From assembly GCA_030655535.1 (NCBI GenBank), contig JAURVK010000001.1, positions 1-38,289 of the forward strand: a DNA stretch of 38,289 nt, written 5' to 3'. The stretch is from Methylobacter sp. GTDB taxonomy: Bacteria; Pseudomonadota; Gammaproteobacteria; Methylococcales; Methylomonadaceae. Position 1 is the first letter of the stretch. Each line of letters starts with the position of its first letter. The position numbers were made by a program, and so were the translations under genes. Below are positions 7,187-38,289 of this stretch, one piece after another. The notes beneath the pieces are model-generated. The model was not told the origin of the DNA. It did not search any database and saw nothing but the letters and a program-made list of their open reading frames with translations.

Positions 7187-7202
7187 GTTTACATTCTAAA
7201 GC

Positions 7203-7231
7203 TGTAGGGGCGACCGGCCGGTCGCCCTAGG
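7203..7231. repeat. TGTAGGGGCGACCGG-type palindromic repeat
   Basis: Near-perfect palindrome TAGGGGCGACCGG/CCGGTCGCCCTA between hisC and hisD. The right arm lacks one C relative to the 38-bp copy at 15126. Same family as copies at 43, 13461, 15126 and 17853. Confidence 0.8.
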
Positions 7232-7239
7232 CATAAAGG

Positions 7240-7366
7240 CAATGCCGTTAAGTTAAGCGATTTAGTTCACATGAGAAATAAATCGCTGGAGTGCAAGCTC
7301 TGCTTGCGTTAGCAGGCGGAGCCTGCACTCCAAATGCCGAAGGCTTTTCTTAACTTAACGGTATTG
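7240..7366. repeat. Nested inverted repeats in the hisD-hisC gap
   Basis: Outer arms CAATGCCGTTAAGTTAAG (7240-7257) and CTTAACTTAACGGTATTG (7349-7366) match at 17 of 18 bases. Inner arms are GGAGTGCA (7288-7295) and TGCACTCC (7324-7331), enclosing AGCTCTGCTTGCG...GCAGGCGGAGCC. A second copy of the inner unit lies at 18633-18676. The whole looks like one dispersed hairpin inserted inside another. Confidence 0.75.
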
Positions 7367-8739: not shown

Positions 8740-8892
8740 TACTGTCCGGGAAATCCATGAAAAAACATTTGTCACTCTATGTATTATATCGTTCCTACGC
8801 GTTTGTGCGATGTGCATCTTTAACTTAATGGCAGTGACGCAGCGCGTGGGAACGAGAAAATATTTCGTGATTTTCGTGTCTTTCGTGGACAG
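8740..8892. repeat. Repeat cluster in the hisG-hisD gap
   Basis: Contains TCGTTCCTACGCG (8789-8801) facing CGCGTGGGAACGA (8843-8855), an inverted pair with one mismatch. It encloses TTTAACTTAATGGCAGTGACGC, a sequence that recurs inverted at the right edge of the window (38251-38289). Flanking it are ACTGTCCGGGAAATCCATGAAAA and TTTCGTGATTTTCGTG-type runs, which also recur at 18304 and 18733 as ACTGTCCACGAAAAGCACGAAA and its complement. Confidence 0.7.
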
Positions 8893-13460: not shown

Positions 13461-13487
13461 TTGTAGGGGCGACCGGTCGGTCGCCCA
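13461..13487. repeat. TGTAGGGGCGACCGG-type palindromic repeat
   Basis: TTGTAGGGGCGACCGGTCGGTCGCCC, a copy with its right arm cut short, in the gap between mlaF and the Hsp70 gene. Same family as at 43, 7203, 15126 and 17853. Confidence 0.8.
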
Positions 13488-13731: not shown

Positions 13732-13874
13732 GTAACTACTCAGCCATCAATATAATAATAGAACGCAGATGACGCTGACCATTAAGATCAAATAAGATTT
13801 TTTTTGAGCTATCCGCGTTTATCCTATTTATCAGCGTCATCTGCGTTCCATTTTTCTAACTACTGAGTAGTTAC
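13732..13874. mobile_element. 143-bp MITE-like element with 8-bp target duplication
   Basis: Terminal inverted repeats GTAACTACTCAG (13732-13743) and CTGAGTAGTTAC (13863-13874). Inside them is an 18-bp perfect inverted pair, GAACGCAGATGACGCTGA (13761-13778) and its complement (13831-13848). Immediately outside, TAAAATCC occurs at 13724-13731 and 13875-13882, the picture of a target-site duplication. No coding capacity. It occupies part of the 572-bp gene-free stretch 13374-13945; the rest holds the 13461 palindrome and no clear gene. A related end (CTAACTACTGAATAGGTAC, minus strand) occurs near 31595-31613. Confidence 0.75.
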
Positions 13875-13945: not shown

Positions 13946-16831
13946 GTGAAAAAACTTACCCAAAACTATCTAGTCGGCATCGACCTTGGCACAACGCATA
14001 CCGTTATCGCTTACGCTAAAGCCGATAATACCAACCAGGAAATACAAATCTTTCAAGTCGAGCAATTGATCGCTCCCGGCCAAGTTGCCGCAAGACCGTT
14101 GTTGCCGTCGGTGCGTTATCATCCTGCGGCCGGCGAATTGTCAGAGGCCGACCTTTCGTTCCCCAGCGGTACGGAATTATCGGGTGATACCGCCGTTATT
14201 GGCGAGGCCGCACGTCTGTTGGGTGCCAAAAGCAAAGGCCGATTTGTTACCAGCGCCAAAAGCTGGCTATCGCATCCGTCGGTTGATCATGGTGCTGACA
14301 TTCTGCCGTGGGGCAGCAACGATGACGTCGCCAAGGTTTCGCCTATAGCGGCCAGCGCCAGTTATTTGGCTCACATTCGTACCGTCTGGGGACATCAATT
14401 TCAGGATGCGCCGCTGGAAAAACAGGATATTGTGATTACCGTTCCCGCCTCGTTCGATGAGGCGGCCAGGTCCCTGACGCTGGAGGCGGCGAAGCTTGCA
14501 GGATTGTCTAATGTCCGGCTGCTGGAAGAGCCCCAGGCGGTTTGCTACGACTGGTTAAGACGCAATACCGGCACCATTAAACAGGCGTTGGCTAATGTGC
14601 ATTTATTGCTGGTTTGCGATGTCGGCGGCGGCACTACCGATTTGACGCTGATCAAAGTAGAGCAGGGCGAGCAGGAGCCTAAATTAACCCGCATCGGGGT
14701 CGGCGACCATTTAATGCTGGGCGGCGACAATATCGATCTGGCCTTGGCGCATCTTGCCGAAAGCCGCCTGGGTAACGGTGAAAAACGCTTGTCGGCGGCG
14801 GATTTGTCGCAGCTGATCGAACAATGCCGGATTGCCAAAGAGCGCCTGTTGGCAGTCGATGCGCCGGAGCAAATCAAGGTCACTTTACTGGGCGGCGGCT
14901 CCAAACTGATCGGCGGCTCCCGTTCTGTTGCGCTGTCTAAGGATGAAGTCAGGAGCATTGCGCTGGACGGTTTTTTTCCCTTGTCGGGTCTTGATGAATT
15001 GCCGGACAGAAAACGTAGCGGCGTGGTCGAGTTCGGCTTGCCGTATGCAGCAGAACCGGCGGTCAGCAAACATATCGCCGCGTTTTTAAAACTGCACGGC
15101 AGCGCATCCCGCGAGGCTTTTGCCGCGCTTGTAGGGGCGACCGGCCGGTCGCCCCTACAAGCGGCATACACACCATCCCTGGCGATCGCCGCGCCGGTTC
15201 CTGACCGGCCTGCGGCATACACACCATCCCTGGCGATAAAAGGGGAAGACAGTGTGCCGGATGCATTGCTGCTTAACGGCGGCGTGTTTCGCAGTCAGCC
15301 GATTACCCAGCGCATGGTCGATTTAATCCAGTCATGGCGCTCCAGTCCGCCGGTATTGCTGGAAAACAGGCATCCTGAATTGTCGGTCGCGTTCGGGGCG
15401 GTCAGTTATGCGCTCGCGAGGCGGGACAAGAAGCTCAAAATAGGCGGCGGCTCGGCGCGCAGTTATTTCCTGCTGGTCGATACCGACGATTCTGCCAAGC
15501 AGCAAGGCATCTGCATCTTGCCCAAAGGCAGTGAAGAAGGCGATGAAGTTGTCTTGAAAGACCGGCGTTTTGCGTTGCGCTTGGGCGTACCAGTGCGTTT
15601 TCATCTGGTTTCATTGTCCGGTGACGGCGACTTCAAACCGGGCGATGTGACCGACATTACCGACTTGTTTCATTCCCTGCCGCCGCTGGCTGTGGCGTTT
15701 GAAGGCGATGACAGCAAGCCGAACGCCGAGGTCATTGTCGAACTGGCGGTTACCCAAACCGAAGTCGGTACGCTTAAGATTCAATGCATTGCTGTTGAAG
15801 ACGGCAGCCAGCGTTGGGATGTAGAGTTTCAAATCAGGAAAAAGGCGGCCGGTTTGCCAATAGATGCGGCTTTGCCCGGCAATTTTAACCAAATTGCCGA
15901 ACGGATACAGGCTGTTTTTGGCGCCAAATCCAGGCAGATTGACCCCAAAGCGGTAAAAAACCTGCGCGCCGATTTGGAAAAACTCATCGGTGTAGCCCGT
16001 ACCGAATGGACGACGCCGTTGCTGAGAGCTATGTTCGCGGTCTTGCTGGAGGGAGGGAAATACCAACGCCGCTCAGAAAATCACGAACGCGTCTGGCTGA
16101 GTCTGGCCGGTTTTTGCTTGCGTCCCGGTTTCGGTTATCCGCTGGATGACTGGCGCGTCGAGCAGCTCTGGAAAAACTATCCGCAAGGCATTCAGTTTGT
16201 TAACGAAACCCAAAACTGGACGGAATGGTGGACGCTGTGGCGACGAATTGCGGGCGGCCTGGATGCGGCGGCGCAGGAACGGATTTTTACCGATATTGCA
16301 AAATTCCTGAACCCGGCAGCGGCAAGACAACCCGGCGTTATCAAGCAAATCAAAAATCGCGGTTACGACGATATGGTCAGGCTGGCGGCGGTTTTGGAGC
16401 GTCTTCCGGTTGCCAGGAAAATACAACTGGGCGAATGGCTGTTAAAGCGTCTGGAAAAAGCCAGCGAACCCAATCAGACTTGGTGGGCCGTGGGGCGCAT
16501 CGGGGCAAGAATGCCGTTTCACGGCAGCAGCCATAATGTTATTCCCGCTAACATCGTCTGTTTGTGGTTACAACAGATGTTGGCGGCAGACTGGAAGAAA
16601 ATTCCGCAGGCCGGTTTTGCTGCTACACTCATTGCGCGTATGAGCGGCGACAGGGCGCGGGATATTGATGAAACTACGCGCCTGCAAATCATCGAAAAAC
16701 TAAAGTTGAGTAAAGCGCCTGCATCCTGGATAGACATGGTCGAGCAGCAAAAAGAGCTGGATGAAAGGGAAGAAAAACAGATTTTTGGCGAAGCATTGCC
16801 GCCGGGATTAAAGCTTATTATTGAAACATAG
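13946..16831 (+). CDS. Large divergent Hsp70-family protein with in-frame repeat insertion
   Basis: 961 residues from a GTG at 13946 (no clear ribosome site). The N-terminal Hsp70/actin-fold nucleotide-binding domain has phosphate 1 GIDLGTTHT (11-19), KDIVITVPASFDEAARSLT, phosphate 2 CDVGGGTTDLTL (around 224-235) and the adenosine motif LLLNGGVFRSQPI (around 440). A substrate-binding-like region follows. The C-terminal half (about 600-961) is unlike DnaK and resembles the long tail of the DUF3731-type Hsp70s of gammaproteobacteria; that family label is by recognition. Residues about 394-431 derive from a 38-bp palindrome plus two 26-bp direct repeats (AAYTPSLAI twice), inserted between a helix and the adenosine motif. 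The frame is kept, so the protein may still fold with an extra loop. Client and role are unknown. No DnaJ or GrpE gene is nearby. Confidence 0.88.
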   Translation: MKKLTQNYLVGIDLGTTHTVIAYAKADNTNQEIQIFQVEQLIAPGQVAARPLLPSVRYHPAAGELSEADLSFPSGTELSGDTAVIGEAARLLGAKSKGRFVTSAKSWLSHPSVDHGADILPWGSNDDVAKVSPIAASASYLAHIRTVWGHQFQDAPLEKQDIVITVPASFDEAARSLTLEAAKLAGLSNVRLLEEPQAVCYDWLRRNTGTIKQALANVHLLLVCDVGGGTTDLTLIKVEQGEQEPKLTRIGVGDHLMLGGDNIDLALAHLAESRLGNGEKRLSAADLSQLIEQCRIAKERLLAVDAPEQIKVTLLGGGSKLIGGSRSVALSKDEVRSIALDGFFPLSGLDELPDRKRSGVVEFGLPYAAEPAVSKHIAAFLKLHGSASREAFAALVGATGRSPLQAAYTPSLAIAAPVPDRPAAYTPSLAIKGEDSVPDALLLNGGVFRSQPITQRMVDLIQSWRSSPPVLLENRHPELSVAFGAVSYALARRDKKLKIGGGSARSYFLLVDTDDSAKQQGICILPKGSEEGDEVVLKDRRFALRLGVPVRFHLVSLSGDGDFKPGDVTDITDLFHSLPPLAVAFEGDDSKPNAEVIVELAVTQTEVGTLKIQCIAVEDGSQRWDVEFQIRKKAAGLPIDAALPGNFNQIAERIQAVFGAKSRQIDPKAVKNLRADLEKLIGVARTEWTTPLLRAMFAVLLEGGKYQRRSENHERVWLSLAGFCLRPGFGYPLDDWRVEQLWKNYPQGIQFVNETQNWTEWWTLWRRIAGGLDAAAQERIFTDIAKFLNPAAARQPGVIKQIKNRGYDDMVRLAAVLERLPVARKIQLGEWLLKRLEKASEPNQTWWAVGRIGARMPFHGSSHNVIPANIVCLWLQQMLAADWKKIPQAGFAATLIARMSGDRARDIDETTRLQIIEKLKLSKAPASWIDMVEQQKELDEREEKQIFGEALPPGLKLIIET
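15126..15163. repeat. 38-bp perfect palindrome inside the Hsp70 gene
   Basis: CGCTTGTAGGGGCGACCGG followed by its exact reverse complement. It is the best copy of the family also found at 43, 7203, 13461 and 17853. It encodes ALVGATGRSPLQA in frame. Confidence 0.93.
15161..15237 (+). repeat. Two 26-bp direct repeats, 51-bp period, inside the Hsp70 gene
   Basis: GCGGCATACACACCATCCCT plus GGCGAT occurs at 15161-15186 and 15212-15237. The period of 51 bp (17 codons) keeps the frame and gives AAYTPSLAI twice. The first copy abuts the palindrome at 15126-15163. Confidence 0.93.
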
Positions 16832-18250: not shown

Positions 18251-18891
18251 TAGGCATCTTTCCTAAATAGTCGATACCAAGATTAATCTCTGATGTTACG
18301 CACTGTCCACGAAAAGCACGAAAGCCACGAAAAAATGTAAAGCCCTCTATTTCTCGACTGACGGTGTAATGCCGAATTATTCATTCATGTCATATCAATG
18401 TGACTGGAACCGGCATTCATGCCGGCATGACGATACTAGCCAAGGTTCATTGTCATCAGGATGTATTTTCGACAGGCTTCCAGTACTCAGTCAATTTTAT
18501 TCTGACGGTTACGCAACTGGATGTGGGAGCGACGCAAGCCGCCCCCCACAGTTACAGGAATCCGTCATTTCTAAATTGACTAAGGAATGAGCATGAAATA
18601 ACGTGAACAACTCGCGCCATAAGTTTGTAGCGGGAGTGCAAGCTTTGCTTGCGTTTGCACGGGATGCCTGCACTCCGGCTATTGGAAACTTGCTCACTTT
18701 ATTTCGTGCCTGTTCCTAAGTATTAGGTACCCCGTTTGTTTTTCGTGCTTGTTGTGTTTTTCGTGGGCTACGATTTTTTATAGGTACGCGCGTAACATCA
18801 GTTAATCTTTTGATGTTATATCCATGTGGGAGTTATGCTCTTATCGCGACGAGGGCGTCGCTCCCACAGGGGCATCACTCCCGCATGGGTT
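18251..18891. repeat. Gene-free stretch of assorted short repeats
   Basis: No gene seen. Contents in order: ACTGTCCACGAAAAGCACGA (18305); ACTGGAACCGGCATTCATGC with its inverted half GCATGACGA (18400-18433); GTGGGAGCGACGCAAGC (18523); GGAGTGCA...TGCACTCC (18633-18676), a copy of the hairpin at 7288; TTTTTCGTGCTTGTTGTGTT (18739); and GTGGGAGTTATGCTC...GTCGCTCCCAC (18826-18867). The last unit runs up to the stop codon of ftsH. Confidence 0.65.
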
Positions 18892-37978: not shown

Positions 37979-38250
37979 GCGGCTCTCAACGTATATTCTG
38001 TGCGGGCAATGCGCGAAATACAGACCTAAAAAACACATGACGCGGTGCGTGTGTCCGATATTTGCCATTTCTAACGTCCTTTTTTACAGTCAAGTAAGGT
38101 AACAGGTGATTTACAAGCAAATAGTTGATGGTCATTTTTGACGCACTGTACTGGAAAAGCCGGTAACTTTTCCACGCTTTTTGACAACCTCAAGTAGGGA
38201 AACTTCTTGTGGCGTTCGACTGAGAATACCTTAAGTTGGCGTTTGTTTCC

Positions 38251-38289
38251 TCGTTTCCACGCGCAGCGTCACTGCCATTAAGTTAAGGA
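38251..38289 (-). repeat. Copy of the hisG-hisD gap repeat, cut by the window edge
   Basis: TCGTTTCCACGCGCAGCGTC to the edge is the reverse complement, with about three mismatches over 39 bp, of 8817-8855. In the gene-free stretch 37875-38289 I see in addition a small hairpin GGAAAAG...CTTTTCC near 38153-38173. Confidence 0.75.

Follow-up and report, generated by a model that had tools for sequence, protein, structure and literature searches.

Introduction

How did 39 extra codons come to stand in the middle of a chaperone gene, and what kind of DNA are they? The question is raised by a stretch of 38,289 nucleotides from a Methylobacter sp. (Methylomonadaceae; assembly GCA_030655535.1, contig JAURVK010000001.1, positions 1 to 38,289), here called the window, which belongs to a draft genome of 2.76 Mb in 179 contigs that is 87.8% complete (G000). 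On its forward strand lies a gene of the Hsp70 family (13946..16831) that encodes 961 amino acids with a C-terminal DUF3731 (PF00012, E 5.6e-18; PF12531, E 9.8e-110) and whose best-matching named orthologues are those of Methylobacter, for example M. tundripaludum SV96. A first-pass annotation, made from the letters of the window alone, had noticed within this frame a perfect 38-bp palindrome followed by two 26-bp direct repeats, and had read them as a mobile palindromic repeat that had become protein. Our comparison of this locus with related genomes suggests a different division of roles. We consider it probable, at roughly 85%, that the insert consists of two tandem copies of a family-restricted, nonautonomous mobile element of 51 bp, made of a hairpin and a fixed tail, that enters genes in frame. 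What was mobile and in frame in the earlier reading would thus be mainly this unit, the palindrome being a second repeat family apparently swapped into the first copy.

The Insert and Its 51-bp Unit

The repeats that had been noticed are real. The 38-bp palindrome occupies 15126-15163 as two 19-nt arms that match at 100% without a gap, its last three bases being part of the first of two identical 26-bp repeats (15161-15186 and 15212-15237), which are spaced 51 nt apart; all of this is in frame in the 961-amino-acid open reading frame (ORF). Measured against an empty allele, the insert covers 15121..15237 on the forward strand, that is 117 nt or 39 codons (about residues 393-431), somewhat more than the 110 bp and 38 residues originally estimated. 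What had been noticed as two 26-bp repeats is the 3' half of a 51-bp unit, present twice, head to tail. Unit 2 (15187..15237, forward strand) is canonical, with its hairpin at 15188-15216 and a fixed tail that ends in GGCGAT. Unit 1 (15121..15186, forward strand) has 66 bp; comparison with the first unit of the orthologous locus L042, which holds two plain 51-bp units, indicates that 33 nt of palindrome stand for 18 nt of the hairpin tip, a net gain of 15 nt. Each unit includes a conserved 20-nt core, GCATACACACCATCCCTGGC, at 15164..15183 and 15215..15234, both on the forward strand. A search of Rfam with positions 15000-15350 returned nine weak matches, every one far under its gathering score.

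This core is dispersed well beyond the Hsp70 gene. With up to three mismatches it has 35 matches in G000 (13 + 22), and its reversed control has none; the idea that the 26-bp repeats arose by local duplication was consequently dropped, for they are part of a genome-wide 51-bp unit. When A or C was accepted at one position and up to two mismatches were allowed, the core turned up in 67 of the 237 family genomes, which belong to 16 of the 29 genera, with a maximum of 61 matches per genome and a single match of the reversed control across all 237. Other assemblies of the genus share it, G110 for instance with 19 core matches. In a sample of the whole phylum the only one of 398 genomes with a match, at up to one mismatch, was the window's own.

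The unit begins with CGCCGC, ends with GGCGAT and folds within its first 30 bases into a hairpin of five outer pairs (GCCGC/GCGGC), six inner pairs that are variable in sequence though paired, a five-base loop (TCCCG), and a two-base bulge; the fixed tail, ATACACACCATCCCTGGCGAT, follows and holds a small second hairpin of 3 bp (CCA-TCCC-TGG). Single-strand folding of two plain units gave z-scores of -3.6 and -3.7. Once units with more than two core mismatches had been excluded, 145 of 154 were kept, and among the 133 distinct ones 87.2% of the pairing cells were paired (1276 observed against 1104.6 +/- 7.3 in 500 shuffles, which ignore relatedness; as the copies share descent, they are not independent events). 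When the partners were slid against each other, 24-46% of cells were paired. At one inner position the pair is TA in 49 units, AT in 36, GC in 15, and CG in 11, and such a variety of pairs, across unrelated genes and reading frames, points to selection on the fold and not on the protein.

The genes that carry the unit, read through the copies of G000, encode long proteins of familiar kinds, and Pfam recognized 17 of the 18 carriers submitted, the exception being L130; among the domains are RNB with the RNase R winged helix, CobW, T2SSE, Competence, Glyco_transf_9, YkuD, and the pyruvate dehydrogenase E1 middle domain. TtcA, GspE, GspL, ComEC, RibF, and HemL are names that we assigned from the sequences. 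The 18 carriers were compared with three congeners, and 15 could be interpreted, L143, sited upstream of the coding part, among them (L128 and L144 had no aligned orthologue, and L120 was uninterpretable). Nine of these 15 have occupied and empty orthologues whose lengths are exactly 51 or 102 nt apart: TtcA, RNase R, CobW, the alpha/beta hydrolase L125, L130, GspE, GspL, the heptosyltransferase L142, and AceE; the differences in TtcA, RNase R, AceE, and GspL were re-measured. In the remaining interpretable carriers, either every congener has some form of the unit or the lengths do not differ by exact multiples. AceE is empty in G110 and G065, whereas G000 has a single unit there and G083 has two. 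No target duplication was visible by eye between the occupied and empty orthologous sites of the 18 carriers in the three congeners.

The places of insertion loosely follow the motif GCNNT^AWA. It was drawn from 86 distinct sites with both ends clear, and its flanks are alike at the 58 genic and the 28 nongenic ones. In the left flank 68 sites have C at -4, 43 have G at -5, and 45 have T at -1; in the right flank 85 have A at +1, 79 have A or T at +2, and 46 have A at +3. GCNWT precedes 21 of the 86 sites against 1.2% of random positions preceding an A, and C is found at -4 in 27% of such positions. The 3' end of the unit, GGCGAT, fits the left half of the target, and because of this likeness each insertion should rebuild a site, allowing head-to-tail arrays.

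The Hsp70 Site

Among 110 orthologous Hsp70 loci, which include the window's own and some genomes represented twice, the loop before the NGG motif has the same short length in 101, in agreement with the earlier supposition that Hsp70s normally have a short loop here and that the insert is absent from most orthologues. Residues of the unit are found in six: the window, L012 and L039 (apparently one genome), L040, L042, and L047. All six fall in or beside Methylobacter and have the DNA in common, and the same residues encoded by unrelated DNA in distant genera, which would have spoken against a mobile repeat, were not seen among the 110. Three further loci, L010 from another genus, L051, and L118, have longer loops made of other residues; the unrelated residues of L010 suggest that the loop tolerates additional length in general.

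In the DNA from AAFLK to LLLNGG, measured in 18 loci with L013 left out, the empty spacing is 72 nt in ten, with 81 nt in L051 and 87 nt in L118, and the occupied spacings are 123 nt in L040 (72 + 51), 174 nt in L042 (72 + 102), and 189 nt in the window (72 + 117). L047, with 120 nt, has a decayed copy, and SV96 (L039, the same as L012), with 102 nt, reads DAAYTSIAI, which we take for a remnant of the element.

Could the insert be a functional loop of Hsp70 that selection has kept? It forms a single loop between a helix and the strand of LLLNGG, and it recurs at the same site in several species. We nevertheless judge this explanation improbable, given that 101 of the loci do without it, that the carriers are scattered on the tree of the Hsp70 flanks, that the added length among them is 30, 48, 51, 102, or 117 nt, and that the same peptide appears in unrelated proteins. 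An AlphaFold2 model built from 40 sequences, whose best folds in the PDB are DnaK structures, places the stretch between helix 385-398 and strand 440-444, which carries LLLNGG, and gives residues 396-432 no secondary structure and a pLDDT below 50, a further point against a defined function. Where the first-pass annotation had proposed to check for a surface loop, the model has an unstructured stretch, probably floppy or disordered; it is weak evidence, being poor as a whole (mean pLDDT 66.5) and equally poor in stretches such as 39-104.

Reading Frames and Translation

The placement of the unit relative to genes was examined in 113 arrays: 28 from G000, 28 from single loci of other genomes of the family, and 57 from four congeners, after exclusion of places less than 200 nt from a locus end and of repeats by flank. 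Counting as ORF-borne those inside an ORF of at least 150 amino acids with 25 codons on each side, 75 of the 113 lie in ORFs, and random spots in the same loci do so at 0.61-0.79, depending on the group. An initial idea of gene-enriched insertion was abandoned after this control.

The unit is read in some frames more often than its target motif would lead one to expect. Applied to the carrier ORFs in 73 loci, a target matrix from the 28 nongenic sites gives an expected number for each of the six frames among the 75 arrays. The frame with consensus IARDGVYAASQSGTGAA was observed 38 times against 16.9 predicted, RRASSRLACGIHTIPGD 19 times against 16.1, and AAPVPDWLAAYTPSLAI 11 times against 11.4; the rarer ones are SPGMVCMPQASRELARR (6 against 12.8), RQGWCVCRKPVGNWRGD (1 against 6.3), and PRQFPTGLRHTHHPWRS (0 against 11.5), which pooled give seven arrays where 30.6 were predicted (frame bias p 7e-09). 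The bias persists when each gene family is counted once for every frame in which it occurs (47 families, 49 counts), the numbers then being 14, 6, 0, 24, 4, and 1 for RRASSRLACGIHTIPGD, AAPVPDWLAAYTPSLAI, PRQFPTGLRHTHHPWRS, IARDGVYAASQSGTGAA, SPGMVCMPQASRELARR, and RQGWCVCRKPVGNWRGD (Monte Carlo p 8.5e-05). Such a deficit suggests that harmful peptides have been removed by selection, which argues, indirectly, that the insert is translated, although with a matrix of 28 sites part of the bias could still be a preference of the target. Cells with these alleles probably make slightly longer versions of their core proteins.

The contrary possibility is that the insert is transcribed and then either removed from the RNA or skipped by the ribosome, as are the byp elements of yeast mitochondria. 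Such an element might show what is seen here: a hairpin, folding with z -3.6 as a single strand, that is joined to a fixed tail and stands at identical sites in genes such as aceE and rnr of sister species. A skipped element, however, needs neither lengths in threes nor preferred peptides, and both are found here. The length differences in the coding carriers compared are multiples of three, except for a 2-nt gap in the C-terminal RibF copy of G083, whereas around the noncoding copy upstream of hemL the compared stretch measures 66, 68, or 64 nt, with indels not in threes; and the frames favor some peptides beyond the bias of the target. We rate skipping as quite unlikely.

One methyltransferase-domain ORF (L144/L145, at G000:C177:1447 and 1652) contains two single units with some 200 nt between them, each read in a frame of its own; the first of them may lie upstream of the true start.

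The Palindrome and the Growth of Arrays

The 32-bp palindrome (15129..15160; TTGTAGGGGCGACCGG and its complement), which the flanking CGC and GCG extend to the perfect 38 bp, is a separate repeat family with GTAG at its foot. Its half-site, with up to one mismatch, has 35 matches in G000 (17 + 18, full palindromes being counted on both strands), and the reversed control none. It had been reported as present in the intergenic DNA of the window too; there, at 7202..7227 and, upstream of the Hsp70 gene, at 13461..13486 (both forward strand), we find relatives that match only the 26-nt left part, and their right sides differ. At 12 orthologous loci a sequence of GTAGGGG type is missing from 11 and present once in L051, at -1642.

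This second family does not behave as a clean in-frame inserter. By the ORF criterion used for the arrays (at least 150 amino acids, 25 codons on each side) it is depleted in ORFs, where 10 of its 32 places lie against 0.68 of random spots (outside, 22 of 32 against 0.32). Besides Hsp70 and ComEC it occurs in eight other ORFs of G000, compared here with three congeners, one or another of which shares it in some cases, and at least five of the eight show it clearly in place of host bases (L006, L299, L304, L308, and L309; less clearly in L005, L301, and L313). In L308 (G000:C7:19849), which we take from its sequence to be an isoleucyl-tRNA synthetase, it stands at DKVGATGRSPLHFPADL with a net gain of 15 nt over the three congeners; in L304 the net gain is 21 nt. 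L299 (G000:C101:6689) differs by 17 nt from G110 and G065, with the two halves of the gene in different frames: what are two frames in G110 and G065 is one continuous ORF in G000 and, at L343, in G083. The palindrome may have fused two genes there.

The palindrome stands in place of a unit's hairpin in Hsp70, in ComEC (L131), in an L,D-transpeptidase paralogue of G083 (L234), near the N-terminus of a gene resembling dihydropteroate synthase (L319 and L320, with shorter forms in L318, L321, and L323), and in one resembling squalene-hopene cyclase (L324), the last three gene names being our own assignments from sequence. A plain unit follows the composite in the window, L131, L319, L320, and L324. 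The composites could have come from a single swap that then spread or from repeated swaps. At positions 43-91 of the window there is another hairpin with the palindrome's foot, TTGTAGGGGCGA, and a different tip; the palindrome family too, it seems, varies its tip.

How arrays of the plain unit grow can be judged from neighboring copies. Of 39 tandem pairs, 27 have inner stems that differ at one or more of the 12 positions in the arms, and 17 of these at three or more, which favors growth by re-insertion. An entirely local origin, with repeats made by replication slippage, the palindrome by template switching and no mobile element at all, would find some support in the 12 pairs with identical inner stems and in the ragged sites at which palindromes replace host bases. 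It can account for the growth of arrays and for the palindrome swap; for the first copy it is contradicted, the same 51 bp being found in the 113 sampled arrays at many unrelated places, and empty orthologous sites being seen as well. As a complete explanation it is very unlikely.

A Possible Mechanism and Its Difficulties

Comparison shows the dispersed copies, the presence or absence of exactly 51 nt, the target motif, the covarying arms, and the frame bias; translation, recognition of the hairpin by its shape, array growth by re-insertion, and the sequence of events in the Hsp70 gene are inferred from these. The history of the unit probably ran as follows. The 51-bp element, recognized perhaps by the shape of its hairpin, integrates at sites that loosely follow GCNNT^AWA, with no target duplication to be seen, and its 3' end, GCGAT, should recreate the target at each insertion, so that head-to-tail arrays could form. 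With 17 codons, often free of stops, it can add to a gene a mild peptide that keeps the frame and is presumably translated, and selection would remove the copies that fell in bad frames or bad places. In the Hsp70 gene one unit would have become two, after which the second repeat family would have replaced the tip of the first hairpin. More tentatively, we suppose that what is recognized in the single-stranded element is shape and not sequence, the arms drifting in pairs, the tip being exchangeable, and the GCGAT tail rebuilding the target; this is a proposal for which the odds are somewhat unfavorable. If it is true, the core proteins of these methanotrophs would still be lengthening, in frame and by tandem copies. 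That the element is moved as single-stranded DNA by a Y1-type transposase acting in trans, similar to those of IS200/IS605 or to the REP-associated tyrosine transposases (RAYTs), is a guess, and one that we ourselves hold with some doubt.

Several observations weigh against the reading of the insert as an in-frame mobile element, or at least limit it. The unit is not enriched in ORFs, its frequency there being about that of chance. Only about half of the sites have the G of the target motif, and the same holds for its T and for its third A. Some arrays may be built by slippage, since 12 of the 39 tandem pairs are identical and ten more differ by no more than two bases. Units open in all six frames are frequent (75 of 133 against 6% of shuffles), which might have passed for an adaptation to genes; they are equally so in genic (46 of 84) and nongenic (29 of 49) copies, so that openness is no sign of selection, and that explanation was not supported. 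At the Hsp70 site the carriers are not one clade: a tree constrained to a single origin was rejected (AU test, p 6e-07, with L051, which has three extra codons and no unit, among its seven insert rows), and gains at a hot spot, an ancestral insertion followed by losses, or exchange of the gene may each explain this. Finally, mobility is read from the comparison of sequences, and no link to an enzyme was found at the Y1_Tnp loci inspected. Y1_Tnp matches occur in 23 of 23 genomes of the genus whatever their unit count; a genome with no units and another with 24 core matches have one Y1 match each. G000 has 12 Y1_Tnp matches, and no unit lies within the flanks of the ten loci inspected. A RAYT or Y1 link of the unit was therefore set aside, there being by inspection no evident relation to copy number either. 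Near one of the ten loci, L151, a related palindrome lies about 1 kb away.

Relation to Known Repeats

Translated palindromic repeats in bacterial genes are already known, and it is by its size, one-sided hairpin, target, and arrays that the 51-bp unit looks new; a literature search on methanotroph repeats, which did not take in most subscription papers, found no earlier description of it. The closest systems are the Rickettsia palindromic elements (RPEs) and, beside them, the Wolbachia palindromic elements. According to Delihas (2007, PMC2229807) RPEs are 105-146 bp long, with a long stem formed by terminal inverted repeats, and are fused in frame in 19 reading frames, that of an active guanylate kinase among them. 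The likeness lies in short hairpin repeats found both between genes and, in frame, inside conserved protein genes that have nothing else in common (PMC2229807 and the MITE review PMC10969869), a behavior for which our counterparts are the ORF-borne arrays and the exact 51- or 102-nt differences. The unit, at 51 bp and with its hairpin confined to the first 30 bases, departs from the size and the long terminal stem described there, as it does by its fixed tail, loose target, tandem arrays, arm covariation, and methanotroph hosts; the distinction is drawn from descriptions of RPEs, the sequences being unaligned, and the parallel drawn in the first-pass annotation accordingly extends to behavior and no further. 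That the unit belongs to the RPE families, or was acquired from Rickettsia, is a most improbable explanation, for the hairpin DNA in frame in unrelated genes that would recommend it (PMC2229807, PMC10969869, PMC3733652) is outweighed by the difference in length, by one 5' hairpin in place of a stem closed by both ends, and by the absence of a core match in the 397 other genomes of the phylum sample.

Repetitive extragenic palindromes (REPs) tagged with GTAG or CGTC are likewise small, lie in some cases inside genes, and occur in several species, some of them free-living (PMC3733652). Neither tag is found on either strand of the consensus of the 133 units, which also occur in ORFs about as often as random spots and are joined head to tail, whereas the same text has most REPs intergenic and their dimers head to head. 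The 32-bp palindrome, with GTAG at the foot of its hairpin and mostly outside ORFs, does fit the GTAG class.

Miniature inverted-repeat transposable elements (MITEs) such as Correia/NEMIS and ERIC resemble the unit in being nonautonomous and dispersed, with some copies fused in frame to genes (PMC2229807). The unit differs in having no terminal inverted repeats that join its two ends, CGCCGC and GGCGAT, and no visible target duplication.

Elements of the IS200/IS605 type have a hairpin near the end, make no target duplication, prefer a short site, and have an end that is like the target. The unit shows all of these features and differs in its 51 bp, in its one strong hairpin with a 3-bp second one in the tail, and in that neither a transposase nor a full-length parent was found for it.

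Selfish repeats that lie in frame in genes have been known chiefly from Rickettsia; in methanotrophs a distinct element behaves likewise. The spread of its core over 16 of 29 genera of one family, and congeners that have genes such as aceE and rnr both with and without it, make three questions testable in culturable hosts: how proteins tolerate insertions of 17-34 residues, what moves short hairpins, and at what rate proteins gain loops in this way.

Other Repeats

The window and its genome hold further repeats. An intergenic inverted repeat with 41-nt arms that are 80% complementary (13751-13858) adjoins the Hsp70 gene upstream. Two copies of a 44-nt inverted repeat, 91% alike, lie at 8817-8860 and, at the contig end, at 38246-38289, and are perhaps a further dispersed repeat; a 47-nt direct repeat, 85% alike, stands between genes at 7285-7331 and 18630-18676. 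In the CopD-like gene L120 (G000:C39) the sequence RIGSLPIATLLTAMDGGNADDYRK, just after a 51-bp unit, matches many places in the three congeners (query about 245-292) and is probably another dispersed, translated repeat.

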